Assembly: GCF_018139625.1 (NCBI RefSeq)
Contig: NZ_JAGSOH010000020.1
Span: forward strand, 1-64,000
Length of the DNA stretch: 64,000 nucleotides
Direction: 5' to 3'
DNA from: Actinospica acidithermotolerans
GTDB taxonomy: Bacteria; Actinomycetota; Actinomycetes; Streptomycetales; Catenulisporaceae
Every line of letters begins with the position of its first letter. Position 1 is the stretch's first letter. The notes beneath the pieces were generated by a model. That model was not told where the DNA came from and ran no database searches. It worked only from the letters and a program-made list of their open reading frames with translations. Below, in pieces: positions 1 through 58,891 of the stretch. Made by a program: the position numbers and the translations under genes.

Positions 1-59
1 CCCCCGCCCATATCGACCTGGTCATCACGACCCTCACCGGCAAGGAGCCGCGTGCCTGA
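1..59 (+). CDS. 3' end of an unidentified gene (truncated by window)
   Basis: An open frame enters from the left edge and ends at TGA 57-59; the last residues read ...TLTGKEPRA. Its end overlaps the GTG start of the methyltransferase at 52, so it is probably the upstream member of the same operon. Too little is present to assign a function. Confidence 0.45.
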   Translation, partial: PAHIDLVITTLTGKEPRA

Positions 60-1313: not shown

Positions 1314-1346
1314 CCACCGCCGACACGCCACGCTCACGGGAGATCC

Positions 1347-1838: not shown

Positions 1839-1924
1839 CCGCACCGCCTGGTGCGGGACGGGATCACCCCCGCCGCGCACCGGGTTCCACCGGGTCTGAC
1901 CGCTTCGAACAAAGGTCTTCGCTG

Positions 1925-3300: not shown

Positions 3301-3438
3301 CAATGCCTCCACACATCACGAAGAACACAAGGACTTGATCCCCGCCGGGCGGCGAGCGTGGATGGACCCGCCCGCCGCCCGGCGGGAGCCGAACGCGGAA
3401 GCGTTCGCCCCGAGAACCACTTTCCAGGAGCACACCGC

Positions 3439-4761
3439 ATGGCATGGGTCGAACCCAAGGGCGCCGGATTCCGCGTCCGGCACCGCCACCCCGACGGCAC
3501 CGTCGAAACCCTCGGCCGCTACGACACCAAGATCGAAGCACGCCGCCACGCCAAGAACTTCAACGCCGACCCCACCGGCCCCGCCCCCACGCCGGACCGG
3601 GCTTCGGCGACGCATGCGGACTGCGATCCGGCGCTCACGCCGCCCCCCTCCGAGACCGCCGTCTCCATGCCCACCGTCGGGTTTGGTGCCGTGATCCCCG
3701 CACCCATCCGTCCGGCGCGCCGCACCGCGCCCAAACGCCCGCGCCAGGAATCACCCGTGAATCTGACGGCCACCACCGGGCCGCTCACCCTCGGTCAGTG
3801 GGTCGAGACGTGGAGCCGTGCACACCAGGTCGCCCCCACGACCGCGGCCAGATACGAATCCCACCTGCGCCTGCACATCCTGCCCAAGTTCGGCGCGACC
3901 CCGATCGCGGCCATCACCAGGATCGAGGTCAAGGCCTGGGCCAAGGAGCTGACCGAGCGCATGGCCACCTCCAGCGCCCACTCCATCCTCACCCTGCTCT
4001 CCACCGTGATGGCGGAGGCCGCAAACGACCGGCACGTGCTGGCAAACCCCTGCCAGGGGCTGCGCCTTTCCCACCGCAAGCGCGACGAGAAGGTCATCGC
4101 GACCCCGCTGCAGGTCCTGCAGATCGCCGACCGCATGGACCCGCTCTCGGCCGCCATGGTCATCACCGCCGCCTACACCGGCATGCGGTGGGGCGAACTC
4201 GCCGCGCTCGCCTGGCACAACGTCCTGCTCGATCAGGACACCCCGGAGATCGTCATCGACCCGGACGAGGGCAACCTGCGCGAGCTCGCTGGGAAGGTAT
4301 GGCTCGATGTGCCCAAGACCGAGAACTCCGTGCGCACCATCCCCATCCCACCATTCCTCGCGAAACTCCTCACCACCAAGCTCGCCGTCGCCCGCCACGA
4401 CACCGTCTTCACCGGAGCGCGCGGCGCCTACCTGCGCCGCTCCAACTTCCGCCAACGCGTCTGGGACCCCGCCGCCGGCGGTGTACCCAGCCACGACAAC
4501 CCCGACCGTCGCGAGCCGATCACCCCCGGCATGACCTTCCACGGGCTGCGCCACTCGCACAAAACCTGGATGAAAGAAGACGGCATCGACGGCTTCGTCC
4601 AGGACAAGCGACTCGGCCACGCCACCCCCAGCATCGGCGACCGCTACTCCCACATCACCCCCGCCATGACCAACACCCTGCTCGACAAGCTCGAAACCCG
4701 CTACCAGCAATCCGTACGCGAGTTCGCCGCGCTGCCGAAGACACCGGGCCACGCCGTCTAA
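3439..4761 (+). CDS. int: tyrosine recombinase (site-specific integrase)
   Basis: A 440-residue integrase. ATG 3439 is chosen because AGGAG lies 8-9 nt upstream. An N-terminal Arm-type domain (residues 1-40, AWVEPKGAGFRVR) and a proline-rich linker precede the SAM-like core-binding domain (about 120-205). The catalytic domain has R250 (GMRWGELAAL), H368-G-L-R371-H and the nucleophile Y403 (GDRYSHI), so the active site is complete. It marks the right side of the integrated element whose other genes lie to its left; the attachment site should lie just downstream, but no tRNA or repeat was found there. Confidence 0.92.
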   Translation: MAWVEPKGAGFRVRHRHPDGTVETLGRYDTKIEARRHAKNFNADPTGPAPTPDRASATHADCDPALTPPPSETAVSMPTVGFGAVIPAPIRPARRTAPKRPRQESPVNLTATTGPLTLGQWVETWSRAHQVAPTTAARYESHLRLHILPKFGATPIAAITRIEVKAWAKELTERMATSSAHSILTLLSTVMAEAANDRHVLANPCQGLRLSHRKRDEKVIATPLQVLQIADRMDPLSAAMVITAAYTGMRWGELAALAWHNVLLDQDTPEIVIDPDEGNLRELAGKVWLDVPKTENSVRTIPIPPFLAKLLTTKLAVARHDTVFTGARGAYLRRSNFRQRVWDPAAGGVPSHDNPDRREPITPGMTFHGLRHSHKTWMKEDGIDGFVQDKRLGHATPSIGDRYSHITPAMTNTLLDKLETRYQQSVREFAALPKTPGHAV

Positions 4762-5239
4762 TCGGCTCGGCACAGACCGCAGGCGAGCGCGCGCACGGTC
4801 CCGCACCGGCGTGTGAGCGTTCCGTTGCGCGCCCCAGCCATCGGGGCCCGGGTAGTCCCCCGCCATGTCGGGACCGACGATCGCATGGCAGAGCGCCATG
4901 CGCCCTGTGGCGGCCACGCGCAATACGTGACAGATCGCGCTGCACGCAGCCGTTACGAACGGGTGCGGGCAGGCTCTTGGACTTGTGCCGGGGCGGCGCG
5001 ATCGACCACATCTCCGCCGGATCGTCCCCATAGCCGCCCATCCCGCGAGGTCACAGCGCCGCCCATGGCGTCGGTGTATGTTCACTTTCGCAATGTTCGT
5101 CGATACGAGGCGCCACCATCCAGCCACGCGTCGACCTGACAGGTGTCCGCAACAGGCTGCCTTGGCGCTCGCCGCGCCGTAGCACGTGTGACACGGCGGG
5201 ACGCGGGGCGACGCGGAGCGATCACAGCCACCTCCTGTG
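4762..5239. other. non-coding stretch at element/island junction
   Basis: No convincing gene. The open frames here are short or run antisense to the integrase and have arginine/proline-rich nonsense composition. A small hairpin (CATGGC...GCCATG near 4883) is the only structure. One end of the integrated element's attachment site is expected in this interval but cannot be recognised without the other end. Confidence 0.5.
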
Positions 5240-5256
5240 TGTTTACTAAGTAAACA
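5240..5256. promoter_or_regulatory. perfect 17-bp palindromic operator candidate
   Basis: TGTTTACT-A-AGTAAACA is a perfect 8-1-8 inverted repeat. It is AT-rich in GC-rich surroundings and lies about 150 bp upstream of the kinase-helicase start. This is the form of a dimeric repressor site. A possible -10 hexamer TACAGT follows at 5290-5295. No regulator gene that could bind it is adjacent. Confidence 0.6.
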
Positions 5257-5407
5257 GCTCGAAGAGTATCCATTAGCGGCAACTTCGTGTACAGTGGCGG
5301 AGCGTAAGGCCTCGTTCGCCCAGCCTTCGGGCACCGGAGTCCGGGGGTTGGGACGAGAATGGGAAGCGCGGCACCTGGGGTGCTGGTCGATGAGCAAGGG
5401 AGTGCCC

Positions 5408-8400
5408 GTGGACCGGGAGAGTATCGCTGGGCGATTCCGCCTCGAGGGTGTGGTGGGCCGCGGCAACGTCGGTGAGGTCTATCGAGCCGAGGATCTCCAC
5501 GCGCCGGAAGGCTCAGCTGACCGTCTCGTGGCGGTCAAGACGCTGCTGCGTCGCCGTTCTGGCGCCTCGTTCGACTCGCAGGCTGATGCCAAGGCGGTGG
5601 AACGGTTCGCGCGCGAGGTGCGGATCATGCGCGTGCTTGGGCACCCGAATCTTCCCCGGATCGTCGATGGCGGCGTGGACGAGCGGCTGGGCGGGCTTCC
5701 GTACCTGGCCATGGAGCTGTTGGACGGCCGGACCCTGGCCGATCTGATCGCGGAGGAGCCGCAGCTTCCGATCGCGTGGGCGGCGGCGGTCGGCGCCCAG
5801 ATCGCTGCCGGGCTTACAGCCGCCCACGCCGAGGGCGTTGTGCACCGGGACCTCAAGCCGGCGAATGTGATGCTGACACGCGGCGGGATCGTGAAGGTGC
5901 TGGACTTCGGAATGGGTCGGCTCGCGGATGATCCCGAGGGCACCCGCTTGACGAGTACGGGGATGACGGTCGGTACTGCCCGGTATATGGCGCCCGAGCA
6001 GTTCGAGGTGAGCCGGGTGACCCCGTCGGCGGACCTGTACGCGCTCGGCTGTGTGCTCTACGAGCTGCTCGTCGGGGTGCCGCCGTTCGTCTCGCAGAGC
6101 GCGTTCGAGCTCGGTATGAAGCACCGTCAGGACACCCCGCCCCCGCTGCGGCTGATCCGCGGCGACATCCCCCTCGAGCTTGCTCGGCTGGTTGAGCGGC
6201 TGCTGGCCAAGAAGCCCGAGGACCGGCCCGTCGACGCGGTCGCGGTGCGCGAGTCGCTGCTCGAGATCGCCCAGGAAGCGCCTATCTCTTCCGGGGTCGC
6301 TGACTGGGCCGAGCTCGATCCGACTGCCTACCTCGCCACGCTCGTCACGCACGCGGCGGCGTCGGCCGATCCGGGCTCTGGCGGCGAGTTTGTGCTGCCG
6401 AGCGCGCCCGGCATGGATGTGTTCGAGGTTCACAGGAAGCTGATCGACGACTATCGCGCGTTCACCGAGGGCGGTACGACCATTCGCGACGAGCGCATTC
6501 GTGCGTTCGTTCAGCAGGATCTGGACGCCAAGTCTCAGTGGCCTGAGCCGTGGCTCTCGCTCAACCCGTTCTTCGCCTCGGCGGGGACGGTCGCCGAACT
6601 GGCTGCGCAGGGCGTGCTGCATGCCGAGTGCGCGAAGATCTTTCAGTTCGGTAAGCGCCCCGACAAGACGGTGTGCGACGGGCGGCCGCTGAGCCTGCAC
6701 CGCCACCAGCTTGAGGCTCTGGAGGCGGCGAAGACCGGCGCGAGCTATGTGCTGACCACGGGCACTGGATCGGGTAAGTCGCTCGGCTACATCGTCCCGA
6801 TCGTTGACCGGGTGCTGCGCGAGCGTGAGGCCGAAGGGCCCGGGGCGCGCAGGCGGGTGCGGGCGATCATCGTGTATCCGATGAACGCGCTGGCCAACAG
6901 CCAGCTCGGTGAGCTGCGCAAGTACCTGCGCGACGGATACGGGGAGGGTCATGAGCCGGTCACCTTCGCGCGCTACACCGGGCAGGAGGATGACGCGCGG
7001 CGCAAGGAGATCCGCGACAACCCGCCGGACATCCTGCTGACCAACTACGTCATGCTTGAGCTGATGCTTACCCGCCCCGCTGACCGGCAGTCGCTGATCC
7101 GGATGGCGGCCGGGCTGGAGTTCCTGGTTCTCGATGAGCTGCACACCTACCGCGGTCGGCAGGGCGCGGATGTCGCGTTGCTGGTGCGGCGGGTGCGTGA
7201 GGGCTGCCAGGCGGAGAACCTTCAGTGTGTGGGCACGTCGGCGACGATGTCCACGGAGGGCAACGCGGCCGAGCGGAAGCTGGCGGTCGCGCAGGTGGCC
7301 GGCAAACTCTTCGGCGCCGCGGTCGATCCCGAGCGGGTGATCGGCGAGACGCTCGTGCGTGCGACCGCCGCCGCTCCTGCGGCCGTCCCGGCTGCCCGGC
7401 TGCGTGCTGCGCGCGCGCCGCGCAGCTATGACGAACTGGTGGCCGATCCGCTCGCCTGCTGGATCGAGTCGTTCTTCGGCCTGACCACCGATGAGGAGGG
7501 CAGGCTGGTGCGGCAGAGGCCGGCCACGGTCGCGGACGCCGCCGCGGCCTTGTCCGCCGAGAGCGGCGTGGAGGCCTCCGTGTGCGCCGCGGCGATTCGC
7601 GCGACCCTCGAGGCTGGATCGCAGGCCGAGCACCCGGTCACGGGTCGACCGCTGTTCGCGTTCCGGCTGCACCAGTTCCTGTCCAAGGGCGACACGGTGT
7701 ATGTCACGTTGGAGGACCCGGAGGTGCGGCATCGCACGCGCACCTACCAGCGCGAGCAGCCCGGTTCCGGCGGGAAGATCCTGGTGCCGCTCGCGTTCTG
7801 CCGCGAGTGCGGTCAGGAGTACCTGACCGTGTGGCGGACCGTCAAGGGCGGCGACACGGTTTACGAGCCGCGCCGGGACACGATGGCCACCGGCGGCAGG
7901 GCGGGCGATGGCTACCTCTACATCGACGCGGACCGGCCCTGGCCCGCCTCGGCCGAACAGGCGGTGGCCGAGCGGCGCCTTCCTGAGTCCTGGCTGGAGA
8001 TCGATGACAAGGGTCAGGAAGTGGTCGCGAAGTCCTATCGCGACCGGCTGCCGGTCGCGGTGACCGTCGATGCGTACGGAACCGAGGGGCGCGGGGAGCT
8101 TCAGGCGGCGTTCATTCCCGCGCCGTTCCTGTTCTGCCCGCACTGCAACGTCAGCTACGAGCAGACCCGCGGTAAGGACTTCGCGAAACTCGCCACGCTC
8201 GATCAGGAGGGCCGCTCGTCCGCGACGTCCCTGGTGTCCGCCTCGATCGTCCGCTCGCTCGACGCGGTCCCGGACCAGGCGCTCGACAAGGCGGCGCGCA
8301 AGCTGCTCACCTTCGTCGACAACCGGCAGGACGCTTCGCTGCAGGCCGGTCACTTCAACGACTTCGCGCAGGTCACCCAGCTGCGCAGCGCCCTGTACCA

Positions 8401-11400
8401 GGCCGTGCTCGCCGCCGGGTCTGCGGGCATCGCGCACGAGGAGCTCGCCACGCGCGTCGCGGAGATCCTCGACCTCAAGCCGATCGCCTACACCGGGCAA
8501 GCAGACCTCTCCCCCGCCCTGGCCCGCAACGCCGCCAAGACGCTGCGCGACGTGGTCGCCTTCCGCCTGTACCTCGACCTCGAACGCGGCTGGCGGGTGA
8601 CGATGCCCAACCTCGAGCAGACGGGCCTGCTCACGATCGGCTATGCGGATCTGCACTGGCTTGCCGGCGAGGACGAGCGCTGGCAGGGCACGCACCGCGC
8701 GCTGCGGGAGGCGGATCCGGCGCTGCGGGCGGAGGTGATGACGGCGCTGCTCGATGAGATGCGCCGGAACCTGGCGATCGACGTGCAGTACTTCCGCGAC
8801 GACTTCGAGGTGCTCCAGCGCGCGAGCGAGGAGCGGCTGATCGACCCGTGGGTGCTCACCCGCAGCGACCGGCCGAAGGTCGGCACCGCCTACCCGCAGC
8901 CGTCCCGGCCGGGCATGGACCGCGCCGGGCTGTTCCTCTCAGCCCGCGGGAAGTACGGCAAGTACCTGCGCCGCGCCGACGAGACATTCCGGGCGCTGGA
9001 CCGCGACGACCTGCAGGCGGTCATCGAGCAACTCCTGCAGGTGCTCGCCCGGGCCGGCCTGGTAACGACGGTCACCAACGCCCCGGCGCAGGCGCGCGGC
9101 TTCCACCGACCGTCAGGACCGGCTATCACCGGCTACCAGGTGGCCGCCGCCGCGCTGATCTGGCGCGCCGGGGCCGGCGAGACCGGCTCGCACGACCCGC
9201 TCACCCGCACCTACGCCAGCGGCGACGGCCCGCGCGTGAATACCTTCTTCCGCGACCTGTACCGCAGCGGAGCGGGCGCGCTGGCGGGCCTGTACGCCCG
9301 CGAGCATACCGCCCAGGTCGACCCGGCCACCCGCGAGCAGCGCGAGCAGGCATTTCGCCGCGCGGACCTCAAACTGCTCTACTGCTCGCCCACGATGGAA
9401 CTGGGCGTGGACATCTCCTCGCTCAACGCCGTGATGATGCGCAACGTCCCGCCGACCCCCGCGAACTACGCCCAGCGCTCTGGTCGGGCCGGGCGAAGCG
9501 GACAACCCGCGCTGGTGACCACCTACTGCGCGACCGGCAACAGCCACGACCAGTACTACTTCCGCCGCTCCGAGCTCATGGTCGCCGGATCCGTCGCCCC
9601 GCCGCGCCTGGACCTGTCGAACGAGGACCTGGTGCTCTCGCACCTGCACGGCATCTGGCTGGCCGAAACCGACCTGCAACTCGGCCGCGCCATCCCGGAG
9701 GTCGTCGATATCGGCCAGACCGAGGGTTCGGGCCAGATTCCCACCGATCTCGCCCTGCACGAGCACGTCACGGCGAAGATCGCCGATCCAGGGGCGCAGG
9801 CGCGCACCATCGAAGCCGCCTACCGGGTCCTCGGCGCGCTCCTGCCCGAGTTCGCCAAGACGATCTGGTGGGACGAGTCGTGGATCGAGCAGCGCGTCCG
9901 ACTCGCACCGGAGATGTTCAAGCAGGCCTTCCGCCGCTGGTGGGGACTGTACACCGCGGCCCTGTACGACCAGCACGCCCAGAACAAGCGGGTGCTCGAC
10001 CACAGCCTGACAGAACGCGACCGACGCCTGGCCGTGCGCCGCCGGGACGCGGCCGAAACCCAGCTGCGGCTGCTGAAGAACGAAACCCCGGATGCCAAGT
10101 CGGTGCTCTCGGACTTCAACCCGTACCGGTACCTGGCCTCCGAGGGGTTCTTGCCCGGCTACTCCTTCCCCCGCCTGCCGCTGGCCGCCTACATCCCGGA
10201 CTCGGCGCGCCGCTTCGGCGACGGCGACTACCTGCAGCGACCCCGGTTCCTGGCCATCCGCGAGTTCGGCCCCGGCGCCCTGATCTACCACGAAGGCGCC
10301 CGCTACCAGGTCACACGCATCCAACTGCCCCCCGGCTCGACCGGCGAGGTCGTCACCACGGAGGCCATGCGCTGCGGGCAGTGCGGCTACCACCACGACC
10401 CGGCCGAACGCGCCGACCGCTGCCAGATGTGTGGCATGCCGCTTTCCGCGCCGACCGTGGGACTAATGCATCTCGACACCGTCTACACCACGCGCCGCGA
10501 GCGGATCTCCTCCGACGAGGAAGAACGGCGCCGCGCCGGGTTCCGCCTGGTCACCTCCTATCGGTTCCACCACCACGGTGCGCGTCTGGGCCGCCAAGAC
10601 GCTCAGGTCGCCGACACGCACGGAACGCTGGCGACGATCTCCTACGGGGATTCGGCGACCGTGCGGATCACCAACCTCGGACGGGCGCGGGCCAAGCCGG
10701 GCGAGCCCGACGGGTTCTGGCTCGATCCCGGCGACGGACGCTGGATGAACGAACGGGACGCCGCGGAAGCCTCCGGCGACTCGAGCGAGATGCCCGTCGT
10801 TGACGCCGAGGGCAACGAGAAGCGCCAGAAAAAGCGCGTCATCCCCTACGTCGAGGACCGCCGCAACATCCTGGTGCTCACGCTGGCTTCCCCGCTCGAG
10901 GAGGGTGCGGCGCTTTCGCTGATGTACGCGCTCGAGCGTGGCATCGAGGCCGCCTTCGAGCTCGAGGACGCGGAGCTGACCAGCGAACTGCTTCCGCCCG
11001 ACGAGGGGCCGCGCGAACGGATGCTGCTGACCGAGGCCGCCGAAGGCGGCGCCGGCGTGCTGCGGCGGCTGCAGGCCGAGCCCGACGCGCTCGCCAGAGC
11101 CGCCCGCTACGCCCTGGCGATCTGCCACTTCGACGAGCACGGCAACGACCTTGCCGACCCGGCCACCGGCACCGATCGGCCGTGCGCCCGCGGCTGCTAC
11201 GACTGCCTGCTGACCTACGGCAACCAGCTCAACCACGGCCAGATCGACCGGCACCTGATCAAGGACCTGCTGCTGCGGCTGGCCGACTCCCATGCTGCGA
11301 GCACCGCGGCCGGCGAAACCCGCACCGAGCAGCTCGCGCGGCTTGCCGCCCAGTCCGACACCAGCCTCGAACGCGACCTGATCACCTGGCTCAAGGAGCG

Positions 11401-11707
11401 CGGCCTGCGCCTGCCCGACGCGGCGCAGCTCTACATCCCCGAAGCCGCATCGCGCCCCGACTTCGTCTACCGCCTGCCCGGCGCGAACGTCGCGGTGTTC
11501 GTCGACGGACCCGTCCACGACGACGCCACGATCGCCGAACGCGACCAGGACGCCGAGGAACGGCTCTACGACCACTCCTGGGACGTGGTGCGCTTCCGCT
11601 ACGGCGGGGCCAGCAACGGCGAGTGGCAGGCTATCGTCGAACGCCACGCCCGCTACTTCGGCACACCCACCCGGCCCCGACTGAATTCACGGACAAGGAC
11701 ACGCTAG
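5408..11707 (+). CDS. Ser/Thr kinase - YprA/MrfA-like helicase - DUF1998 - nuclease-like fusion
   Basis: About 2,099 residues. GTG 5408 is preferred because AAGGGAG sits 5-6 nt upstream; in-frame ATG 5390 is the alternative. Residues 9-300 form a complete protein kinase: glycine loop GRGNVG (17-22), K44, HRDLKPAN (D148), DFG (D166) and an APE-like MAPEQ. Then comes a superfamily 2 helicase with GTGSGKS (K457), DELH (576-579), SATM, and a C-terminal lobe with SPTMELGVDIS and QRSGRAGR (1356-1363). A four-cysteine ribbon (CGQCGY...CQMCG) and the DUF1998-type end with C1926, C1930 and C1933 follow. The last ~110 residues (RPDFVYRLP...VAVFVDG) resemble a Vsr/DUF559-type PD-(D/E)xK nuclease. DUF1998 helicases are the DrmA/DrmB relatives of DISARM and MrfA. 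It abuts the SNF2 gene (TAG directly before ATG), so the three genes are one transcript. Confidence 0.85.
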   Translation: MDRESIAGRFRLEGVVGRGNVGEVYRAEDLHAPEGSADRLVAVKTLLRRRSGASFDSQADAKAVERFAREVRIMRVLGHPNLPRIVDGGVDERLGGLPYLAMELLDGRTLADLIAEEPQLPIAWAAAVGAQIAAGLTAAHAEGVVHRDLKPANVMLTRGGIVKVLDFGMGRLADDPEGTRLTSTGMTVGTARYMAPEQFEVSRVTPSADLYALGCVLYELLVGVPPFVSQSAFELGMKHRQDTPPPLRLIRGDIPLELARLVERLLAKKPEDRPVDAVAVRESLLEIAQEAPISSGVADWAELDPTAYLATLVTHAAASADPGSGGEFVLPSAPGMDVFEVHRKLIDDYRAFTEGGTTIRDERIRAFVQQDLDAKSQWPEPWLSLNPFFASAGTVAELAAQGVLHAECAKIFQFGKRPDKTVCDGRPLSLHRHQLEALEAAKTGASYVLTTGTGSGKSLGYIVPIVDRVLREREAEGPGARRRVRAIIVYPMNALANSQLGELRKYLRDGYGEGHEPVTFARYTGQEDDARRKEIRDNPPDILLTNYVMLELMLTRPADRQSLIRMAAGLEFLVLDELHTYRGRQGADVALLVRRVREGCQAENLQCVGTSATMSTEGNAAERKLAVAQVAGKLFGAAVDPERVIGETLVRATAAAPAAVPAARLRAARAPRSYDELVADPLACWIESFFGLTTDEEGRLVRQRPATVADAAAALSAESGVEASVCAAAIRATLEAGSQAEHPVTGRPLFAFRLHQFLSKGDTVYVTLEDPEVRHRTRTYQREQPGSGGKILVPLAFCRECGQEYLTVWRTVKGGDTVYEPRRDTMATGGRAGDGYLYIDADRPWPASAEQAVAERRLPESWLEIDDKGQEVVAKSYRDRLPVAVTVDAYGTEGRGELQAAFIPAPFLFCPHCNVSYEQTRGKDFAKLATLDQEGRSSATSLVSASIVRSLDAVPDQALDKAARKLLTFVDNRQDASLQAGHFNDFAQVTQLRSALYQAVLAAGSAGIAHEELATRVAEILDLKPIAYTGQADLSPALARNAAKTLRDVVAFRLYLDLERGWRVTMPNLEQTGLLTIGYADLHWLAGEDERWQGTHRALREADPALRAEVMTALLDEMRRNLAIDVQYFRDDFEVLQRASEERLIDPWVLTRSDRPKVGTAYPQPSRPGMDRAGLFLSARGKYGKYLRRADETFRALDRDDLQAVIEQLLQVLARAGLVTTVTNAPAQARGFHRPSGPAITGYQVAAAALIWRAGAGETGSHDPLTRTYASGDGPRVNTFFRDLYRSGAGALAGLYAREHTAQVDPATREQREQAFRRADLKLLYCSPTMELGVDISSLNAVMMRNVPPTPANYAQRSGRAGRSGQPALVTTYCATGNSHDQYYFRRSELMVAGSVAPPRLDLSNEDLVLSHLHGIWLAETDLQLGRAIPEVVDIGQTEGSGQIPTDLALHEHVTAKIADPGAQARTIEAAYRVLGALLPEFAKTIWWDESWIEQRVRLAPEMFKQAFRRWWGLYTAALYDQHAQNKRVLDHSLTERDRRLAVRRRDAAETQLRLLKNETPDAKSVLSDFNPYRYLASEGFLPGYSFPRLPLAAYIPDSARRFGDGDYLQRPRFLAIREFGPGALIYHEGARYQVTRIQLPPGSTGEVVTTEAMRCGQCGYHHDPAERADRCQMCGMPLSAPTVGLMHLDTVYTTRRERISSDEEERRRAGFRLVTSYRFHHHGARLGRQDAQVADTHGTLATISYGDSATVRITNLGRARAKPGEPDGFWLDPGDGRWMNERDAAEASGDSSEMPVVDAEGNEKRQKKRVIPYVEDRRNILVLTLASPLEEGAALSLMYALERGIEAAFELEDAELTSELLPPDEGPRERMLLTEAAEGGAGVLRRLQAEPDALARAARYALAICHFDEHGNDLADPATGTDRPCARGCYDCLLTYGNQLNHGQIDRHLIKDLLLRLADSHAASTAAGETRTEQLARLAAQSDTSLERDLITWLKERGLRLPDAAQLYIPEAASRPDFVYRLPGANVAVFVDGPVHDDATIAERDQDAEERLYDHSWDVVRFRYGGASNGEWQAIVERHARYFGTPTRPRLNSRTRTR

Positions 11708-14629
11708 ATGCCCCCCACCTTCGCCGTCGGATCCCTGGTCACCGCGCGCGGCCGGGACTGGGTCGTACAGCCCGCCTCCGCCGAGGACCTGCTCGTGCTG
11801 CGCCCGCTCGGCGGCTCGGACGACGAGATCGCCGCCGCGTTCCCCGACGAGGTCGAAACCGCCAGCTTCGCCCCACCCCAGGCTAGCGACCTCGGCGACG
11901 CCCAGGCAGCCGGGCTGCTGCGCAGCGCCCTGCGCATCGGCTTCCGCTCCGGCGCGGGCCCCCTACGCTCGCTAGCGGGCATCGCCGTCGAGCCGCGCGC
12001 CTACCAACTCGTCCCGCTGCTGATGGCGCTGCGCCAACCCACCGTCAGGATGCTGATCTCCGACGACGTCGGGATCGGCAAGACCGTCGAAGCAGGGCTC
12101 ATCGCCAGCGAACTGCTCGCCCAAGGCGACGCCAAGGGCCTGGCGGTGCTCTGCGCCCCGGCGCTGGCCGAACAGTGGCAGCAGGAGTTGCGCACCAAGT
12201 TCGCCATCGACGCCGAGCTCGTCCTCGCCTCCACCGTCTCGCGCCTCGAACGCGACCTCGACCTCGGCCAGTCGCTGTTCACCAAGCACCCCAACGTCAT
12301 CGTCTCCACCGACTTCATCAAATCCACCCGGCACCGCGACGACTTCGTGCGCTACTGCCCGGACCTGGTCATCGTCGACGAAGCCCACACCTGCGTCGCC
12401 GCCGACGAGCGCACCGGCTCCCAGAACCAGCTGCGCTACGAACTGCTCAAACTGATCGCCGCCGAGGCGGACCGGCACCTGCTGCTGGTCACCGCCACAC
12501 CGCACAGCGGCAAGGAAGCCGCCTTCCGCAACCTGCTCGCCCTGGTCAACCCGAAACTCGCGGACGCCGACCTGGACACCGACACCGGCCGGCGCCTCCT
12601 GGCAGAGCACTTCGTCCAACGCAAGCGCGCCGACGTGCGCCACTACCTCAGCACCGAAGACGGCCTCGACGACGACCGGCTGAAAGAAACCACCGCCTTC
12701 CCCTCCGACCGCCAGTTCAAGGACGAGACCTACAAACTCACCCCCGCCTACCGTGCCCTGCTCGAAGACGCCTTGACCTACGCGAGCGAACGCGTGACTG
12801 CAGCTGGAAGCCAAGGCAAACGCGAAGCGCGCATCGCCTGGTGGTCCGCCATCGCCCTGCTGCGCTCCCTAGTCTCCTCCCCACGCGCCGCAGCCCAGAC
12901 GCTGCGGACCCGCTCGGCCACCGCGGCGGCCGCCTCCGCCGAGGAAGCCGACCGCCTCGGCGCCCCCCTGACCTGGGACTCGGCCGAGAACGACGCGCTC
13001 GAAGGCCTGGATGCGGCACCCGGCGCCGACCCCGGCGACACCCCAGGGCCGCTGGCCGAACTCGCCGCCCGCGCCGCCGCCCTCGAAGGCCCGACCGGCG
13101 ACGCTAAACTCAAAGCCCTCATCACACACCTCAAGGCCCTGCTCAACGACGGCCACCACCCGATCGTCTTCTGCCGCTACATCCCCACCGCCGAATACGT
13201 CGCCGAACACCTCGACGGCAAACTCGGACGCCACACCGTCGTCAAGGCCGTCACCGGCACCCTCTCCCCCCAACAGCGCATCGCCCGGATCGAAGAACTC
13301 GCCGACGCTGCCGGCACCGACCCCGACGCGCGCCGCGTCCTGATCGCCACCGACTGCCTCTCGGAAGGCGTCAACCTCCAGCACCACTTCGACGCCGTCG
13401 TCCACTACGACCTCGCCTGGAACCCCACCCGCCACGACCAGCGCGAAGGCCGCGTCGACCGGTACGGCCAGAAACGTGATGTCGTGCGCGTGATCACCCT
13501 GTACGGCGCCGACAACGGCATCGACGGCAAGGTCCTCGAAGTCCTGATCAAAAAGCACCGGCAGATCCGCAAGGACCTCGGTATCTCAGTGTCCGTGCCC
13601 GACGAGGCATCCACGGCGGTCACCGACGCGATCCTCGAATGGATGCTTCTGCGCGACGCCAAACCCGGTCAAGAAACCCTGTTCGACCTCGAAGCGCTCC
13701 AGCCGATCGAGGCGGAGGCCGCCGCCCTCGAGCAGGAATGGAACTCAGCCGTCGAGCGCGAACGCACCTCTCGCTCTCGCTTCGCCCAGCGCTCCATCCA
13801 CCCCCAGGACGTCGCCCGCGAAGTCATCGAAATCCGCCAGGCACTCGGCGAGCCCGGAGAAATCCGCGCCTTCGCCCACCGCTCCCTCACCGCCCTCGGC
13901 GCCATCCTGCGCGAAGAGCCCGGCGACGGCGAAACCCGCACGCCCGAGTTCACCGCCGAGCTCAGCGGCACACCCGCCGGCCTGCGTGATGCGCTCTCCC
14001 CCGTTCTCGGCGGCGGCATCATCGACCGCGCAGCACACCTCCCGTTCTACGCCGACGCCGCCGTCGCCCGCGGCGAAGCGGCCCTCGTACGCACCGACCC
14101 CGTCCTCGGCGCCCTAGCCAGCCACGTCCTCAATGCCGCCCTCGACCCGCACACCGACGGCGCCCGACCGGCCCGCCGCTGCGGAGTGATCACCACCGAC
14201 GCGGTTGCCGTCCGCACCACACTCCTGCTGGTGCGCTACCGATTCCACCTCACCCTGCCCTCCCGCCACGGCGAACGGCAACTGGTCGCCGAAGACGCCC
14301 GCCTCCTCGCCTTCCAAGGATCCCCGCGCAGCGCCACCTGGCTCGACCCCGAGCAAGCCCGCGCCCTAACCGACGCCACAGCCACCCGGAACACCGACCC
14401 GCTGTTCGGCGAGAACACCATCGACCGCATCCTGAGCCAGCTCAGTGAGACCGAGGGGCACCTCGCCGCGGTTGGCGAACGCCTCGCCAACGACCTCTAC
14501 GAATCCCACCGCCGGGTGCGCCGCGCCTCCCGCGAAATCGTCCAAGGCCTGAAAGTCGCCGTCCACGAACACGCCGACATCCTCGGCGTCTACGTCTACC
14601 TGCCCGCCGCACCCGGAGGCACCGCCTGA
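11708..14629 (+). CDS. SNF2/RapA-type helicase, DISARM DrmD-like
   Basis: A 973-residue SWI2/SNF2 ATPase. It has Walker A DDVGIGKT (K125), DEAH box VDEAH (224-227), motif III TATPHSG, a long insertion, and motifs V/VI ATDCLSEGVNLQ and QREGRVDRYGQ (578-588). The RapA/HepA-like arrangement and the helical C-terminus fit the DrmD component of class 1 DISARM, a translocase on duplex DNA. It starts directly after the kinase-helicase stop and its own stop overlaps the methyltransferase ATG (ATGA-like TGATG at 14627-14631), implying coordinated translation. A generic SNF2 repair translocase is the alternative, but the neighbours make a defence role more likely. Confidence 0.87.
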   Translation: MPPTFAVGSLVTARGRDWVVQPASAEDLLVLRPLGGSDDEIAAAFPDEVETASFAPPQASDLGDAQAAGLLRSALRIGFRSGAGPLRSLAGIAVEPRAYQLVPLLMALRQPTVRMLISDDVGIGKTVEAGLIASELLAQGDAKGLAVLCAPALAEQWQQELRTKFAIDAELVLASTVSRLERDLDLGQSLFTKHPNVIVSTDFIKSTRHRDDFVRYCPDLVIVDEAHTCVAADERTGSQNQLRYELLKLIAAEADRHLLLVTATPHSGKEAAFRNLLALVNPKLADADLDTDTGRRLLAEHFVQRKRADVRHYLSTEDGLDDDRLKETTAFPSDRQFKDETYKLTPAYRALLEDALTYASERVTAAGSQGKREARIAWWSAIALLRSLVSSPRAAAQTLRTRSATAAAASAEEADRLGAPLTWDSAENDALEGLDAAPGADPGDTPGPLAELAARAAALEGPTGDAKLKALITHLKALLNDGHHPIVFCRYIPTAEYVAEHLDGKLGRHTVVKAVTGTLSPQQRIARIEELADAAGTDPDARRVLIATDCLSEGVNLQHHFDAVVHYDLAWNPTRHDQREGRVDRYGQKRDVVRVITLYGADNGIDGKVLEVLIKKHRQIRKDLGISVSVPDEASTAVTDAILEWMLLRDAKPGQETLFDLEALQPIEAEAAALEQEWNSAVERERTSRSRFAQRSIHPQDVAREVIEIRQALGEPGEIRAFAHRSLTALGAILREEPGDGETRTPEFTAELSGTPAGLRDALSPVLGGGIIDRAAHLPFYADAAVARGEAALVRTDPVLGALASHVLNAALDPHTDGARPARRCGVITTDAVAVRTTLLLVRYRFHLTLPSRHGERQLVAEDARLLAFQGSPRSATWLDPEQARALTDATATRNTDPLFGENTIDRILSQLSETEGHLAAVGERLANDLYESHRRVRRASREIVQGLKVAVHEHADILGVYVYLPAAPGGTA

Positions 14630-17600
14630 TGTCCGCCACCTCCCGCAACCAGGTCTCCTCCGCCGTGCACACCGTCGGCGGGCTCCTGCCCAACGACATG
14701 CTCACCCGCATCGCCGAAGAGAGCGTCGCAGGCTGCGAACCCGCCACCTACCACATCATCGGCACCCGCACAGTACGCGACGAAGCCGAACGGCACTGGG
14801 ACTACCTCAAAGCGATCTGGCGCGAACTACGCGAGAAACTCCAACCGGCACCTGAAGCCGAAACACCGCCCGACCCGACGGGCACCGCCGTCAGCGACTG
14901 GATCGAGCCGCTCTTCGCCGAACTCGGCTACGGCCGGCTCACCCCGCTCGCCGCCACCGGCATCCCCGCCGACGACGGCACCAAGACTTTCCCCGTCAGC
15001 CACTGCTGGAACCACGTACCCATCCACATCACCGCCTGGAACACGACGCTCGACAAACGCCCCGGCGGCCCCGGAACCGTCCCGCCGCAGTCACTCCTGC
15101 AGGAATGCCTCAACCGCACCGACGCACACCTGTGGGGCATGCTGACCAACGGCCGGCAACTCCGGTTGCTGCGTGACTCCAACGCCCTGGCCAGCGCCGC
15201 GTACGTCGAGTTCGACCTCGAAGCCATCTTCGACGGCGAACTGCTCAGCGAGTTCGTCCGGCTCTACCGCCTGGCACACGTCTCGCGCTTCGAAGTACCC
15301 GAAAAGGCGGCCCCTGCAGCATGCTGGCTCGAGAAATGGCGCCTGGAAGCGATCGAAACCGGAACCCGGGCCCTGGACCACCATCGCGACGGCGTCCAGA
15401 ACGCCATCACGACCCTGGGCACCGGCTTCCTTCAGCACCCCGCCAACACCGCGCTGCGCCGCGACCTCGACGTTCAGAAATACCACGCCGCGCTCCTGCG
15501 CCTCGCGTACCGGCTGATCTTCCTGTTCGTCGCCGAAGACCGCGACGCCCTGCACCCCCCGAACACGCCGGCCCTCGCCCGAGAGCGCTACAAAGTCTAC
15601 TTCTCCACCTCCCGCCTGCGCCGACTCGCTTCCCGCCGCCGCGGCACCTCCCACACCGACCTCTACCAGACCCTGCGCATCGTCCTCGACGCGCTCAGCG
15701 ACGAAGACGGCAAGCCCGCCCTCGGCCTTCCCGGACTCGGCGGCATCTTCGACAACACCGAGGCAGACGCCCCACTGCACGGAGCGCTCATCTCCAACGC
15801 CCACCTCCTCGAAGCAGTCCGCCACCTCTCCAGAGTCCGCGACGCATCCTCGTCCCGCTGGCGGCAGGTCGACTACCGCAACATGGGCGCGGAAGAACTC
15901 GGCTCCATCTACGAATCGCTCCTGGAACTCGTCCCGCAGCACAGCGCTAGCGACTCCACCTTCGAACTCGTCGACCGTCTCGGCAACGACCGCAAGAAGA
16001 CCGGCTCCTACTACACGCCGGCCTCCCTGATTGAGACCCTGCTCGACTCGACGCTCGATCCGGTGATCGACGACGCGGTCAAGCGCGGCGAACAGCGCGC
16101 CAGTGCAGAAGGCAAGGCAGACGCCAGCGATGCGATCATCGCCGAACTGCTCTCGCTGACCGTGTGCGACCCCGCATGCGGATCCGGCCACTTCCTCGTC
16201 GCCGCCGCACGACGCATCGCCAAGCGCATCGCCGCCGTCCGCGAGGCCAACCCGGAACCTACTGCCGAGTCCGTCCGTCACGCCCTGCACGAAGTCGTCG
16301 CCCGCTGCCTGTACGGCGTCGACCTCAACCCTATGGCCGTTGATCTCGCCAAGATGTCGCTGTGGATCGAATCACTCGAACCCGGCAAGCCGCTCGGCTT
16401 CCTCGACGCGCACATCCTCCACGGCAACGGCCTGATCGGCGCAACCCCTGCCCTCCTCGAAGCCGGAATCCCTGACGCAGCCTTCAAGGCCATCGAAGGC
16501 GACGATCCGAAGGTCGCCAAGACCTTCGCCGTTCAAAACGAGAAGGAGCGCGGGAAACAGGAGAGCCTCTTCGATATCGAAGTCGCCCTCACGGCCGCAA
16601 ACACGGCGATCGCCGCGAGTGCACGCCGCATCACCCACGCCCCGGCCGACACGCTTCGCGACGTCCGCCGCCAGGCGGCTGCATACCGGGAGCTCCGCCG
16701 CTCCCCCGCCTACCTTCGCGACTGTCACATCGCGGACGTGTGGTGCTCAGCCTTCGTCTGGCGTAAGACCACGGACGCCCCTGCCCCGCCCACACACGAC
16801 GTCTTCAACGCGCTGCAGAAGTCGCCTGACATCGTGACCCCGGATCTCGTCCGCGACGAAGTCAAACGCCTGCACAAGCAGTACCAGTTCTTCCACTGGC
16901 ACCTCGAGTTCCCGGAAATCTTCAACGTCGGGGAGGGCACGTCGTCTGCCGACCCGAGGACCGGTTGGGAAGGCGGATTCAGTTGCGTGGTCGGCAACCC
17001 GCCGTGGGACAAGGTCGACTTCGAGGACAAGAAGTACTTCAGCGTCATCGAGCCGTCGATCGCATCGATCGCGGGTACTGCACGCCGCACGCGCATCCAG
17101 ACGTGGAGAACCGAGAACCCCGAAGCCGGCAACCGCTACCACGAAGCGCGGCGCACCGTCAAGGGAACATTTCATTTCGCGGGCGACTCGGGCTCGTTCC
17201 CGCTCTGCGCGAAGGGACTCAGCGTCAAGGGTGTCAACTCTCTGCAGACCGACCAATTGTTCGCCGAACGCTTCGCGACGATCGCTGCCACGGATGGGCG
17301 CGTCGGCTGCATCATCCCGACCGCTATCGCCACGGGAGCGGGCGCGCAGTACCTCTTCCAAGATTTCACCCGACGTGGAGCGATCACGTCGCTGTACGAC
17401 TTCGAAAACCGCAAGCCCATCTTCCAGGGAGTCGACTCCAGGTATAAGTTCTGCCTCCTGTCGCTGGTCGGCCGTGCTTTACACGAACCCAAGGCGCAAC
17501 TCGCGTTCTTCCTGATGGACACCTCGGATCTACGGGACTCCTCCCGCACATTCGAGCTGAGCCCAGATGAGATCAGGCTACTCAACCCCAACACGGGGAC

Positions 17601-18750
17601 ACTGCCCATCTTCCGTCGTAGGCGTGACGCCGATCTAACCCTTGATATCTACCGACGCCTTCCAGTGTTTTGGAATGAAGGCGAACGATCCGGTAACCCA
17701 TGGGGCGTCACATTCAAGAACCTCTTCAACATGACCGATGACTCGGACATCTTTCGCAGCCAGCATCAGCTTGAGGCCGAAGGATGGGAACGACGGGGCA
17801 ACGTCTTCTTAAAGGATCAAGAACGTATGCTCCCGCTATTTGAGGGCAAGATGCTCCATCACTATGACCACCGGTGGAATTCTTTTTATGGCGCCGCGGA
17901 CGACGATCGGGTGCGTCGTGTACCTGATGCGGCGAAGCACGACCCTGCCGAAGCAGCGATTCCGCGCTACTGGGTTGCTGACAAGGGCTCCGTAGCAACT
18001 CGCCGGAGAGGAGCGCACACAGAAATTCCTGGTGTAGAACTGCGGCTTGCTGACCTTCGTTGGCACCACGACTGGCTTCTCGGATGGCGCGATATCTGCC
18101 GCACAACTGATGAGCGCACGGCAATCCCAGCTTTCTTACCTCGCACAGCCGTCGGCCACACCTTTCCGCTTATGTTGCCGCGGGTTTCGCCATTCCTGAT
18201 CTCAATACTTATCGCCGCACAAAGCTCGCTTGTTTTCGACTTCGTGAGTCGACAGAAGATCAGCGACGCTCACATGAAGCTATTCGTCTGGAAGCAGCTT
18301 CCGGTACCGGATCCGAACATAATGGAGCCGCATAGAAGCTTCATCACGCCACGTGTCCTCGAGCTCGTTTACACCGCCTACGACATGGCCGCTCTCGCTC
18401 GAGACCTAGGCGACCAGGGCGAGCCGTTCTGCTGGGATGAGGATCGTCGGGCGCAGATCCGTGCCGAGTTGGACGCGTACTTCTTCCATCTCTACGGGAT
18501 CAGCCGCGAAGACGCGGACTACATTCTGGAGACCTTCCAGTCCGACTCCGGCGGCGGTCTGAAGAATAACGAGATCAACAAGTACGGCAAGTTCCGCACA
18601 AAGAAACTTGTGCTGGCCGAGTACAACCGAATGGCGCCCGCCAAGCCAGGCCTCGAGTCTCCCCTGCGCGACGGCGACAACTACACGTCGACCCTGTCCC
18701 CGGCGCCAGGATTCGGACCTCGACACCCGGCCTGTTCGGCAGCGGCCTGA
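14629..18750 (+). CDS. Eco57I/PglX/DrmMI-like adenine-specific DNA methyltransferase
   Basis: A 1,373-residue protein. The gamma-class methylase core has motif I DPACGSGHF from D514 and motif IV NPPW from N790, both intact, so N6-adenine methylation is expected. The ~450-residue N-terminal region and ~450-residue C-terminal region, which should hold target recognition, are typical of type IIG, BREX PglX and DISARM DrmMI enzymes. No separate PD-(D/E)xK site is obvious. Base composition drops from about 17,600 to 18,400 and at least three TTA leucine codons occur (in GRALHEP, VFLKDQ and AFLPRT), unlike the 5' half; the specificity region may have been exchanged. Third gene of the cassette; a strong stem-loop follows. 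Confidence 0.87.
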   Translation: MSATSRNQVSSAVHTVGGLLPNDMLTRIAEESVAGCEPATYHIIGTRTVRDEAERHWDYLKAIWRELREKLQPAPEAETPPDPTGTAVSDWIEPLFAELGYGRLTPLAATGIPADDGTKTFPVSHCWNHVPIHITAWNTTLDKRPGGPGTVPPQSLLQECLNRTDAHLWGMLTNGRQLRLLRDSNALASAAYVEFDLEAIFDGELLSEFVRLYRLAHVSRFEVPEKAAPAACWLEKWRLEAIETGTRALDHHRDGVQNAITTLGTGFLQHPANTALRRDLDVQKYHAALLRLAYRLIFLFVAEDRDALHPPNTPALARERYKVYFSTSRLRRLASRRRGTSHTDLYQTLRIVLDALSDEDGKPALGLPGLGGIFDNTEADAPLHGALISNAHLLEAVRHLSRVRDASSSRWRQVDYRNMGAEELGSIYESLLELVPQHSASDSTFELVDRLGNDRKKTGSYYTPASLIETLLDSTLDPVIDDAVKRGEQRASAEGKADASDAIIAELLSLTVCDPACGSGHFLVAAARRIAKRIAAVREANPEPTAESVRHALHEVVARCLYGVDLNPMAVDLAKMSLWIESLEPGKPLGFLDAHILHGNGLIGATPALLEAGIPDAAFKAIEGDDPKVAKTFAVQNEKERGKQESLFDIEVALTAANTAIAASARRITHAPADTLRDVRRQAAAYRELRRSPAYLRDCHIADVWCSAFVWRKTTDAPAPPTHDVFNALQKSPDIVTPDLVRDEVKRLHKQYQFFHWHLEFPEIFNVGEGTSSADPRTGWEGGFSCVVGNPPWDKVDFEDKKYFSVIEPSIASIAGTARRTRIQTWRTENPEAGNRYHEARRTVKGTFHFAGDSGSFPLCAKGLSVKGVNSLQTDQLFAERFATIAATDGRVGCIIPTAIATGAGAQYLFQDFTRRGAITSLYDFENRKPIFQGVDSRYKFCLLSLVGRALHEPKAQLAFFLMDTSDLRDSSRTFELSPDEIRLLNPNTGTLPIFRRRRDADLTLDIYRRLPVFWNEGERSGNPWGVTFKNLFNMTDDSDIFRSQHQLEAEGWERRGNVFLKDQERMLPLFEGKMLHHYDHRWNSFYGAADDDRVRRVPDAAKHDPAEAAIPRYWVADKGSVATRRRGAHTEIPGVELRLADLRWHHDWLLGWRDICRTTDERTAIPAFLPRTAVGHTFPLMLPRVSPFLISILIAAQSSLVFDFVSRQKISDAHMKLFVWKQLPVPDPNIMEPHRSFITPRVLELVYTAYDMAALARDLGDQGEPFCWDEDRRAQIRAELDAYFFHLYGISREDADYILETFQSDSGGGLKNNEINKYGKFRTKKLVLAEYNRMAPAKPGLESPLRDGDNYTSTLSPAPGFGPRHPACSAAA

Positions 18751-18760
18751 CCTCCGGGTA

Positions 18761-18814
18761 CGGACTGGTCAGCCGTACGCCACCGGGTTTGGTGGCGTAC
18801 GGCTGACCAGTCCG
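18761..18814. terminator. 24-bp perfect stem-loop between convergent genes
   Basis: CGGACTGGTCAGCCGTACGC plus four more bases (18761-18784) is the exact reverse complement of 18791-18814, with the 6-nt loop GGGTTT. There is no T-tract, as is usual for actinomycete terminators. It separates the methyltransferase end (18750) from the oppositely oriented HTH-methylase end (18821) and should stop transcription from both sides. Confidence 0.85.
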
Positions 18815-18820
18815 TCGTCG

Positions 18821-20491
18821 TCAGTCTTCGGATGCCGGTGGCTCTAGTGCTCCATTGCCGAGGCCTTCGCGTGCCAGGTTTAGCGCTTGAGTACTGAGTT
18901 CGGCCAGGCGGCGGGCGCGCTGTTCGAACTCGTTGAGAGCCCGGAAGGCGCTGCCATAGCGGCGCTGCTGCTCCACCGGCATCTGCGGAATCCGTGCCGC
19001 GCGCGTGTCCGTTCGGTAGGTGCCACTGGCGCTGGTTGAACGACGCGTGTTGCCGGGGCTGTGCAGGAATCCGCGCAGGAAATCCGTGTCGAGCTGCTCG
19101 CTCGTGGACGTGGGGTCGTCTGCCTCGAGATCGACGAGTCCCGCGCGGGCGAGTTCGGCAAGGCTAACGGCCGGCCCCTCGACTGTGCCTGTTCCGTCTC
19201 CGGGATCGAACTCGGGAAGAGATTGAAGCAGCTCGCGGGCCAGCGCGGTTAGTTCATGCCGGAGCTCGGCGTACTCGACGGGGTAGTCACGGTGCAGCGT
19301 GCCGACATAGCCGCCTGGCGACAGATCGACGGTCTCATCGAGCAGCTCGATCAGCGGTACCTCCGCTACCTGCGCCGGATCAGGATCCCATGGCCCGTCT
19401 GCGGCGTTAGTCGTGAGGTCTACCATGCGTACGTGACCGGCTGTGTCGGCCGGCGCTGTGGGGCGTTGCAGGTGCCAGATGTGGATGGGTTGCGCGTGGA
19501 CTGCGGACATGCCGGGGGGCAGGGCGGTGACTTGGGTCAAGGCGCCGCGGCGGACGAGTTCGGCGCGGATGCGCCGTCCGGCTTTGCGATAGGCGACCGA
19601 TGTGGGCATGACGATCAGCGCACGACCGCCGGGAGCCGTGTGGGCGTAGCAGTGTTGGAGCCAGGCGAGTTCGTTCTCAGCCCGTGAGGGTGTGCCCAGC
19701 TCCCAACGTGGGTCGAGGAGCAGCTGCTCGCGGCCCCAGTCCGGGGCGGCGGTGGGCGGATCGCATACCACGAGGTCGGCACGGAGGCTTGGCCACCGGT
19801 CGTCCCGCAGGGAGTCTCCGACCTCGACCTCGACGTCGGTCCGACCGGCCGCCAGGGCGCGGGCGCGTGTCAGAGCCGCGAGGCCCGGTTCCTTATCTTG
19901 GCCGCGCAGCACGACCGGGCGATTAGGCGCGGCGAGCGCAGCGGCAGACAGCAGCAGCGTTCCTGTGCCGCAGGCGGGATCCAGGATGACACTGGGCGGG
20001 GTACTGCTCGCGGCCAGGTGAGTGAGGGCCTTGATGAGAGGCGGCGGGGTGACACGGCCGGAGCCAGCTCGGCATTCCGCGTCCAGGAGCCGGTCGGCAA
20101 GGCCTGCGACAACTCCCGCGGCGCCGCTCTCGTCCGCGAGCTCGTCGACCATGGTCTGGATCTGCGTGCCGATTCCCGCCTCGTCGTTCTCGCTCAGATA
20201 TCGAGCGACGGCTGTCACTGCGGCGGTCATATCGTCGCCGAACTCGGCGCGCAGAGCCTGCCAAAGGCGTACCTCGCCCGTCACCTCGTTGCCCTTGTTC
20301 TGGCGCTTGAGCCACGCGCGGACCTCGCTGAGTGGAAAGAGCGGGCCGTTCGAGCCGCTGCGCACCGGCTGCGGAAAGTCGGAATGGCGCCGTCTCCAGT
20401 TGGACACCGCGGCCCTGGTCACCCCGGCCAGCCGGGCAACCTCAGCACTGGTGAGCAGGGGTTCCGCCATCGAACGAGCATCGCGTGTCAT
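18821..20491 (-). CDS. HTH plus N6-DNA methylase (HsdM-like) with altered motif IV and HsdS-like tail
   Basis: 556 residues from ATG 20491 (in-frame ATG 20470 is the alternative). An N-terminal MerR/XRE-like HTH (SAEVARLAGVTRAAVSNWRR, about 14-33) is followed by a helical HsdM domain, SAM-binding DPACGTGTLL from D171, and a motif IV that reads DPPT (244-247) in place of the expected aromatic (DPPF/Y/W). The C-terminal 60 residues (IPQMPVEQQRRYGSAF, then a long helix) look like the conserved end of HsdS half-subunits. No HsdR is adjacent. The lost aromatic suggests weak or absent methylation, so it could be a DNA-binding regulator or sensor. It is divergent from the HamA-like gene with a 132-bp shared promoter region. 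Confidence 0.8.
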   Translation of the reverse strand: MTRDARSMAEPLLTSAEVARLAGVTRAAVSNWRRRHSDFPQPVRSGSNGPLFPLSEVRAWLKRQNKGNEVTGEVRLWQALRAEFGDDMTAAVTAVARYLSENDEAGIGTQIQTMVDELADESGAAGVVAGLADRLLDAECRAGSGRVTPPPLIKALTHLAASSTPPSVILDPACGTGTLLLSAAALAAPNRPVVLRGQDKEPGLAALTRARALAAGRTDVEVEVGDSLRDDRWPSLRADLVVCDPPTAAPDWGREQLLLDPRWELGTPSRAENELAWLQHCYAHTAPGGRALIVMPTSVAYRKAGRRIRAELVRRGALTQVTALPPGMSAVHAQPIHIWHLQRPTAPADTAGHVRMVDLTTNAADGPWDPDPAQVAEVPLIELLDETVDLSPGGYVGTLHRDYPVEYAELRHELTALARELLQSLPEFDPGDGTGTVEGPAVSLAELARAGLVDLEADDPTSTSEQLDTDFLRGFLHSPGNTRRSTSASGTYRTDTRAARIPQMPVEQQRRYGSAFRALNEFEQRARRLAELSTQALNLAREGLGNGALEPPASED

Positions 20492-20623
20492 GCCCCAAGT
20501 GTACACGCGCAGCCTACATGACTCCATGGGAGACATGTGTTTGCAGCGTAAACGCATAGCGTGTGCTCTAATGGAGTAAAGGCCGCGGAGCGCGGCTCGT
20601 GCTAGAACGGGATGGGAGGGTCG
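20492..20623. promoter_or_regulatory. divergent promoter region with small inverted repeats
   Basis: This 132-bp gap drives both the HTH-methylase and the HamA-like gene. It contains ACTCCAT (20521-20527) matched by ATGGAGT (20571-20577), and a compact palindrome GCGT-AA-ACGC (20536-20545) between them. The HTH domain of the methylase is a natural candidate to bind here. No consensus -35/-10 pair is convincing. Confidence 0.4.
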
Positions 20624-50354: not shown

Positions 50355-50367
50355 GGTCTGGGCCAGG

Positions 50368-58871: not shown

Positions 58872-58891
58872 GCGGTCGTTGATCTTGCGCT

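Follow-up and report, generated by a model that had tools for sequence, protein, structure and literature searches.

What defence system is encoded where a protein kinase, a helicase, an SNF2-type ATPase and a PglX-type methylase are packed into three contiguous genes? The question was raised by a cassette in the window, the whole 64,000-nucleotide stretch of Actinospica acidithermotolerans DNA analysed here (contig NZ_JAGSOH010000020.1, positions 1 to 64,000), which belongs to a 7.9 Mb genome of an actinomycete order also containing Streptomyces loci. An earlier reading made from the letters alone (the sequence-only reading) had proposed a compact DISARM/Pgl hybrid not matching a named type. 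The cassette is very probably an ARMADA Type I operon whose YprA helicase carries a fused Hanks-type kinase at its N-terminus. The three-gene core is an already published system; to the extent that this could be checked, the kinase fusion and an upstream palindromic operator make up an undescribed variant of it.

ARMADA comprises a YprA helicase, a BrxHII-like helicase and a PglX-like methylase, in Type I generally in that order, and YprA proteins of both ARMADA types carry a predicted Vsr nuclease at the C-terminus (Bell et al. 2025, PMC12458937). Gene 1 of the cassette combined a YprA-family helicase and a DUF1998-type region in one chain, with CxxC zinc-binding motifs inserted in the helicase (motifs of the chain at 855, 967, 1713, 1729 and 1987). 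Its Pfam matches were Pkinase (4e-40), DEAD (1e-23), Helicase_C (4e-11) and MZB (2e-8), the last being the DUF1998-type zinc domain. Gene 2 (11708-14629, forward strand) was matched by Helicase_C and SNF2 in Pfam and by DrmD/BrxHII profiles in PADLOC, and was annotated with these and NCBIfam as a BrxHII/DrmD/RapA-like SNF2 ATPase (ArmA-like). Gene 3 (14629-18750, forward strand) was matched by Eco57I/N6_Mtase in Pfam and by DrmMI/PglX profiles in PADLOC, and was annotated as a PglX/DrmMI-like N6-adenine methyltransferase (ArmB-like) with DPACGSG and NPPW motifs. Partner genes and order were those of Type I, and no RelE-GajB-like ArmD lay within the operon, which closes with a hairpin at 18760. 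The best PADLOC profile for the gene 1 helicase was DruE, at 353 bits. This is the expected outcome, Druantia being nearest to the YprA proteins of ARMADA (PMC12458937). The sequence-only reading had named these parts correctly (kinase, helicase, DUF1998, SNF2, PglX-type methylase) and placed the boundaries to within a few codons.

Co-occurrence across genomes, the check which that reading had suggested, was borne out: the three genes recurred in the same order in plasmid and genome records across several phyla. A plasmid search returned 68 records with the helicase, and kinase-less relatives with the same three genes and order were found on plasmids of Nocardioides, Rhodococcus, Deinococcus, Roseomonas, Acidithiobacillus and Agrobacterium. 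In Chroococcidiopsis the pair stands before the helicase, in agreement with the different order, pair before helicase, reported for cyanobacterial ARMADA (PMC12458937). Homologues were absent from the viral contigs and phage records searched. Since the order recurs across phyla and homologous operons also have the palindrome upstream, the three-gene arrangement with its palindrome is not a chance one. On Deinococcus radiodurans plasmid MP1 (L016, L023), ARMADA Type I was found with a divided methylase, annotated as two genes next to an insertion sequence element, and in Deinococcus strain BRD125 the ARMADA helicase was annotated in three pieces.

The published composition covers the three-gene core, and the claim that no named type applies survives for the kinase variant only. 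Neither 'kinase' nor 'phosphorylat' appears anywhere in the main text of PMC12458937 (0 occurrences), in which N-terminal added domains are described on other YprA lineages as well. Literature searches returned no description of a kinase-YprA helicase fusion, the ARMADA supplement and most subscription papers being outside their scope.

The operon consists of three co-directional open reading frames (ORFs) on the forward strand (5237-11707, 11708-14629 and 14629-18750), which abut at the gene 1/gene 2 junction (TAG|ATG) and overlap at the gene 2/gene 3 junction (TGATG), as the sequence-only reading had stated. The single upstream palindrome that it had noted was also confirmed (5240-5256), and its single terminator corresponds to a perfect 25-bp hairpin without a T-run (18760-18815) between the operon and a convergent gene, probably a bidirectional terminator. 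The gene 1 ORF opens at 5237, and the likely start is GTG 5402 or 5408 or ATG 5390, giving a kinase-YprA helicase-DUF1998/MZB-nuclease fusion at 5402-11707 (forward strand; Pfam, PADLOC). In residues of the ORF from 5237, the chain was divided into a Hanks-type Ser/Thr kinase domain (60-335; 5414-6241), a variable linker delimited by alignment (336-392, up to Met393; 6242-6412), a YprA/DruE-like SF2 helicase (6413-9550) with Walker A TTGTGSGKS at 507, DELH at 632-635 and CxxC pairs at 855 and 967, an MZB/DUF1998 zinc-binding domain (1895-1991; 10919-11209) and a C-terminal nuclease-like domain of Vsr/DUF559 type (11309-11686). The kinase, helicase and DUF1998 parts of the fusion that the sequence-only reading had described were clear in Pfam; its nuclease was fainter. 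Homologues of this last domain matched DUF559 in 33 of 43 cases (best 8e-5) and Vsr in 9 of 43 (best 0.002) at a loose threshold (E up to 1). Its structural model was confident (predicted local distance difference test, pLDDT, 91), and weak fold matches included PD-(D/E)XK nucleases (best probabilities 0.85-0.89, none with E <0.001). D2075 and D2090 were conserved.

Is the fused kinase intact? Across 56 sequences (the window and 55 loci), K101, H203, R204, D205, K207, N210, D223, F224 and G225 were invariant. T239 was likewise invariant (56/56), and T241 was Thr or Ser in 55 of 56. Both residues align with activation-loop threonines of PknB, the best Protein Data Bank (PDB) match; these threonines are the autophosphorylation sites of PknB. 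Conservation was 0.73 in the kinase, 0.76-0.87 in the helicase parts and 0.51 in the linker. From its residues, the fused kinase looks active.

The spread of the fusion was assessed at two scales. Among 198 genomes sampled from the class (helicase threshold E up to 1e-60), the helicase was present in 11, and besides the window an in-frame kinase was found in 4 of the other 10. Eighty loci came from a scan of 84,980 species genomes seeded mainly with fused members. Among the loci fetched from the scan, plasmid and genome searches, 55 had an in-frame kinase and 47 lacked one; several of these 47 are fragments or are truncated at a contig end. Because of the seeding, these counts are not frequencies. 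In a quick helicase tree built without an outgroup, with kinase-less three-gene relatives as the comparison set, all 54 fused rows fell inside one clade of 56 (support 100), nested among kinase-less relatives. This clade covered at least nine families (Streptomycetaceae, Micromonosporaceae, Pseudonocardiaceae, Nocardiaceae, Thermomonosporaceae, Streptosporangiaceae, Nocardiopsidaceae, Glycomycetaceae and that of the window). A 'Melainabacteria' row (L044) was placed among Pseudonocardiaceae and is probably a misassigned contig. In a kinase tree, the fused kinases grouped in a single clade (99/99), and the 32 other kinases of the order fell outside it. Because fused rows form one helicase clade and fused kinases one kinase clade, the fusion most likely arose once and was then kept.

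Two rows of the fused clade were not fused. One (L040) starts 74 bases before the helicase. The other (L049) has an upstream region with no kinase in the three forward frames; it is a true loss of the kinase, the sole one seen, with helicase, partners and operator kept. Its host, Streptomyces AC1-42W, carries both a fused ARMADA and this kinase-less one, inside the fused clade and with the operator (L049, L059). On branches adjoining the fused clade, three kinase-less ARMADA loci (L076, L084, L091) have a divergent stand-alone kinase ~0.25-1.05 kb before the helicase. These kinases were rejected as an ancestral split form on their position in the tree, outside the fused-kinase group, and are at most, perhaps, an independent second recruitment. 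Internal initiation at the conserved Met393, which would give a kinase-less isoform, was also rejected: Shine-Dalgarno sequences were not enriched there (16/53 versus 383/1520 internal Met). Because of this lack of enrichment, Met393, at the old helicase start, is read as the relic start of a kinase-less helicase.

The perfect palindrome TGTTTACTAAGTAAACA (5240-5256), which lies 5' of the operon, is a case of the consensus YGTTKACNNNGTMAACR, derived from the window palindrome and the fused loci. Within 400 nucleotides upstream of the kinase, YGTTKACNNNGTMAACR occurred in 36 of 55 fused loci at up to one mismatch and 39 of 55 at up to two, against ~1% and 2.5% of random 400-nucleotide windows of the same loci, an enrichment that is partly circular, the consensus having been drawn from these loci. 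An independent rarity check in 15 whole genomes of 4.5-11.6 Mb gave 29 exact sites versus 2 for a reversed control. The operator was seen only in the fused clade, including its kinase-less member L049. In 10 of the 15 genomes, a second copy lay beside a McrBC/UvrD-helicase cluster or before a gene for a helix-turn-helix (HTH) N6-methylase. The cluster encodes a McrB-type AAA ATPase, McrC (PF10117) and a GajB-like UvrD helicase; earlier work had already linked McrBC to a DISARM-like YprA cassette (PMC11090510; PMC12458937). In family and in the spacing of its motifs (Walker K278/D460 versus K266/D454 in ArmD), the UvrD helicase is similar to ArmD of ARMADA Type II; a Pfam search for a RelE-like N-terminus gave no match. 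In the window's own genome, the second operator copy lies among apparent arginine-biosynthesis genes and is probably due to chance. Other contigs of this genome carry a protein similar to YprA-type helicases (G000:C6:8745-12410) and a full-length UvrD helicase (G000:C111:16550-18646, L172) 45% identical to the operator-linked one.

The operator-linked HTH-methylase adjoins the same UvrD helicase and belongs to the family of the gene convergent with the window operon, which encodes an HTH and N6-methyltransferase protein (18821-20494, reverse strand, start approximate; Pfam, PADLOC). This family was found near 12 of 49 fused loci versus 2 of 39 others (one of the two being L049), and the window's member is possibly an associated component of the kinase-fused ARMADA. 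Where the HTH-methylase stood co-directionally just upstream (8 fused loci), the operator was present in 0 of 8, versus 36 of 42 others (Fisher p = 6e-6, which overstates the evidence, related loci having been counted separately). In some copies a sigma-70-like gene is divergent from the operator; such a gene was near 9 of 49 fused loci. A sigma-70-family gene with regions 2, 3 and 4 (L131:5971-7620) and its relatives (L129, L132, L064, L086) lie beside the operator or upstream of the kinase-ARMADA, and the sigma part of the L131-type gene matched the PADLOC MzaA profile. Downstream pairs of an HTH/DUF5753 gene and a short DUF397-like gene were also seen, the HTH gene being near 22 loci with the fusion and 8 others; actinomycetes frequently carry pairs of this sort.

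What the kinase does in this setting can be proposed by analogy. The core would act as ARMADA, with gene 3 methylating host sites and the two helicases loading on unmodified phage DNA and recruiting the C-terminal nuclease, so that replication would be blocked and the host stay alive. The gathering of several YprA molecules on DNA, or a phage signal, would bring the kinases together, and these may trans-phosphorylate their activation loops at T239/T241, the PknB positions. Phosphorylation of the complex or of its partners would then switch the system from an idle or modifying state to restriction, as proposed for PglW acting on PglX. PglW, the Hanks kinase of Pgl, autophosphorylates, confers resistance only with its catalytic lysine intact and has been proposed to pass a signal to PglX (PMC4365076). 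L049, which keeps helicase, partners and operator without the kinase, is as expected for a control module rather than a core part. Several points weigh against this account. The kinase is no close relative of PglW (51 bits versus a cut-off of 990), and what it phosphorylates or senses, and how fused members function, would have to be predicted from sequence. The C-terminal nuclease is a weakly supported prediction from sequence and fold, and a structure search for a BrxA-like domain after RecA1 gave no significant PDB match (region pLDDT 78). The loss in L049 shows that the kinase is dispensable in some context, which is also compatible with a passenger. The ARMADA Type I identity with fused kinase and its regulatory role, taken jointly, are evenly balanced between true and false, and the regulatory role, judged by itself, is a tentative proposal that falls just short of an even chance.

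A kinase acting instead as a second effector, which on contact with phage DNA would phosphorylate host proteins (e.g., translation factors) and back up DNA cleavage with a growth stop, is unlikely. Its nearest PADLOC profiles, PD-T4-6 and Mad6, are defence-system kinases, and a suicidal role has been proposed for the PglW and DndF kinases (PMC12839542); but the many PD-T4-6 models in PADLOC also match ordinary PknB-like kinases, so that the match says little on function, L049 lost the kinase while the rest of the system stayed, and ARMADA Type II, in which all four enzymes are required, works without host death, infected cells remaining intact (PMC12458937). It is distinctly unlikely that the kinase signals to transcription by phosphorylating a regulator, or the sigma-70-like protein, at the common operator, so that phage contact would turn on several defence operons. 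The sharing of the operator by ARMADA, the McrBC/UvrD operon and the HTH-methylase, its restriction to the fused clade and L049, and the sigma-70-like gene divergent from some copies speak for this; against it, the regulator is putative, the operator is missing from a third of fused loci and retained in L049 without the kinase, and the sigma-70-like gene is near so few of them. A passenger kinase, fused by chance and retained through drift on an ARMADA working as in kinase-less relatives, would fit the one natural loss and the commonness of those relatives. With the checked catalytic residues invariant in 56 sequences from at least nine families and conservation near the helicase level, this is improbable.

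The compact DISARM/Pgl hybrid of the sequence-only reading is a very improbable alternative. Its components are related at family level, the DrmD and DrmMI profiles matching genes 2 and 3 and a kinase accompanying a PglX-like methylase, but the tests of membership failed. The helicase and DUF1998 parts lie in one DruE-like chain and not in separate DrmA and DrmB genes, PglZ and PglY are lacking from the operon, and NCBIfam cut-offs were missed widely (DrmD 304 bits versus 610 and PglX 53 versus 400, besides PglW). Among the proteins scanned, no DrmC phospholipase-D protein was found in the three-gene operon or beside it, as that reading had also observed. A broader extension of the regulatory role, in which the kinase-ARMADA would be the signalling hub of a coordinated defence regulon, is unlikely: the kinase would report engagement of phage DNA, and YGTTKACNNNGTMAACR would tie together ARMADA, the McrBC operon with its ArmD-like UvrD helicase, the HTH-methyltransferase and the sigma-70-like gene beside some copies. 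Defence kinases are recurrent (Pgl, TerY-P, DndF), with roles mostly open, and here the kinase is covalently joined to a helicase-nuclease in more than 50 genomes. The natural kinase-less member L049 makes its role directly testable by point mutants, and the common operator offers testable co-regulation between defence operons that can be tens of kilobases apart.

The cassette has other defence genes around it. Divergent from the HTH-methylase, a HamA-like (DUF1837) and HamB-like helicase pair (20612-24990) makes up a Hachiman system, the HamB-like protein having a C-terminal HIRAN match. A three-gene pPIWI-RE system follows (28862-35966: pPIWI_RE_Y plus restriction endonuclease, PprDinG-like helicase and PprPIWI), and then a 1742-residue protein with a sacsin-type domain and a full-length PADLOC TmtA match (39929-45157; 1282 bits). 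Elsewhere (25480-27033 and 47722-60478) a NucS-C-like protein, a CoiA-like nuclease protein, trypsin and subtilase genes, a group II intron reverse transcriptase and an ISL3 transposase were found. Just upstream of the cassette (52-4761) are an N6/N4-methylase fragment, an HTH_17 protein (2380-3300) and a tyrosine integrase (3358-4761). With these upstream genes, the island is possibly a mobile element that integrated.

The cassette was compared with known systems by partner genes and profile cut-offs. DISARM class 1 shares with it SNF2-like DrmD and PglX-like DrmMI relatives and a YprA-family helicase with DUF1998. Pgl/BREX type 2 has a Hanks-type kinase alongside a PglX-type methylase in Streptomyces, whereas the window operon is without PglZ, PglY/BrxC, BrxD and BrxHI, and its kinase shows no kinship with PglW beyond the fold, being fused to a helicase and not to NERD. 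For Dpd, the DpdE equivalog failed in NCBIfam (192 bits versus 500) and no 7-deazaguanine genes were found among the scanned proteins; one PADLOC 'DpdE' profile scored 1588 bits on gene 2 and is its sole full-length PADLOC match, a caution for annotation, the system not being Dpd. MADS was rejected on its Mad6 kinase equivalog (134 bits versus 460). Druantia provides the best PADLOC profile for the helicase, DruE, but the window operon has BrxHII- and PglX-like partners and neither DruH nor other Druantia partners (DruABCD or DruMFG). The TerY-P kinases of CoCoNuT systems are likewise Ser/Thr kinases tied to defence with a YprA-like helicase, but have a gene of their own, accompanied by zinc ribbon, phosphatase and VWA partners, and are unfused to the helicase (PMC11090510). 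ARMADA Type II (E. coli NCTC 12900) has three of four protein families in common with the window, and an ArmD-like UvrD helicase is linked via the operator in several Streptomyces genomes, but Type II differs in gene order and includes a fourth gene, RelE-GajB-like ArmD, inside the operon. ARMADA Type I agrees with the window in a YprA helicase that has a DUF1998 region and a putative nuclease at the C-terminus, its BrxHII-like and PglX-like partners, the same order and no ArmD; to the composition given in the paper's main text, the window adds an N-terminal PknB-like kinase and a recurrent palindromic operator.

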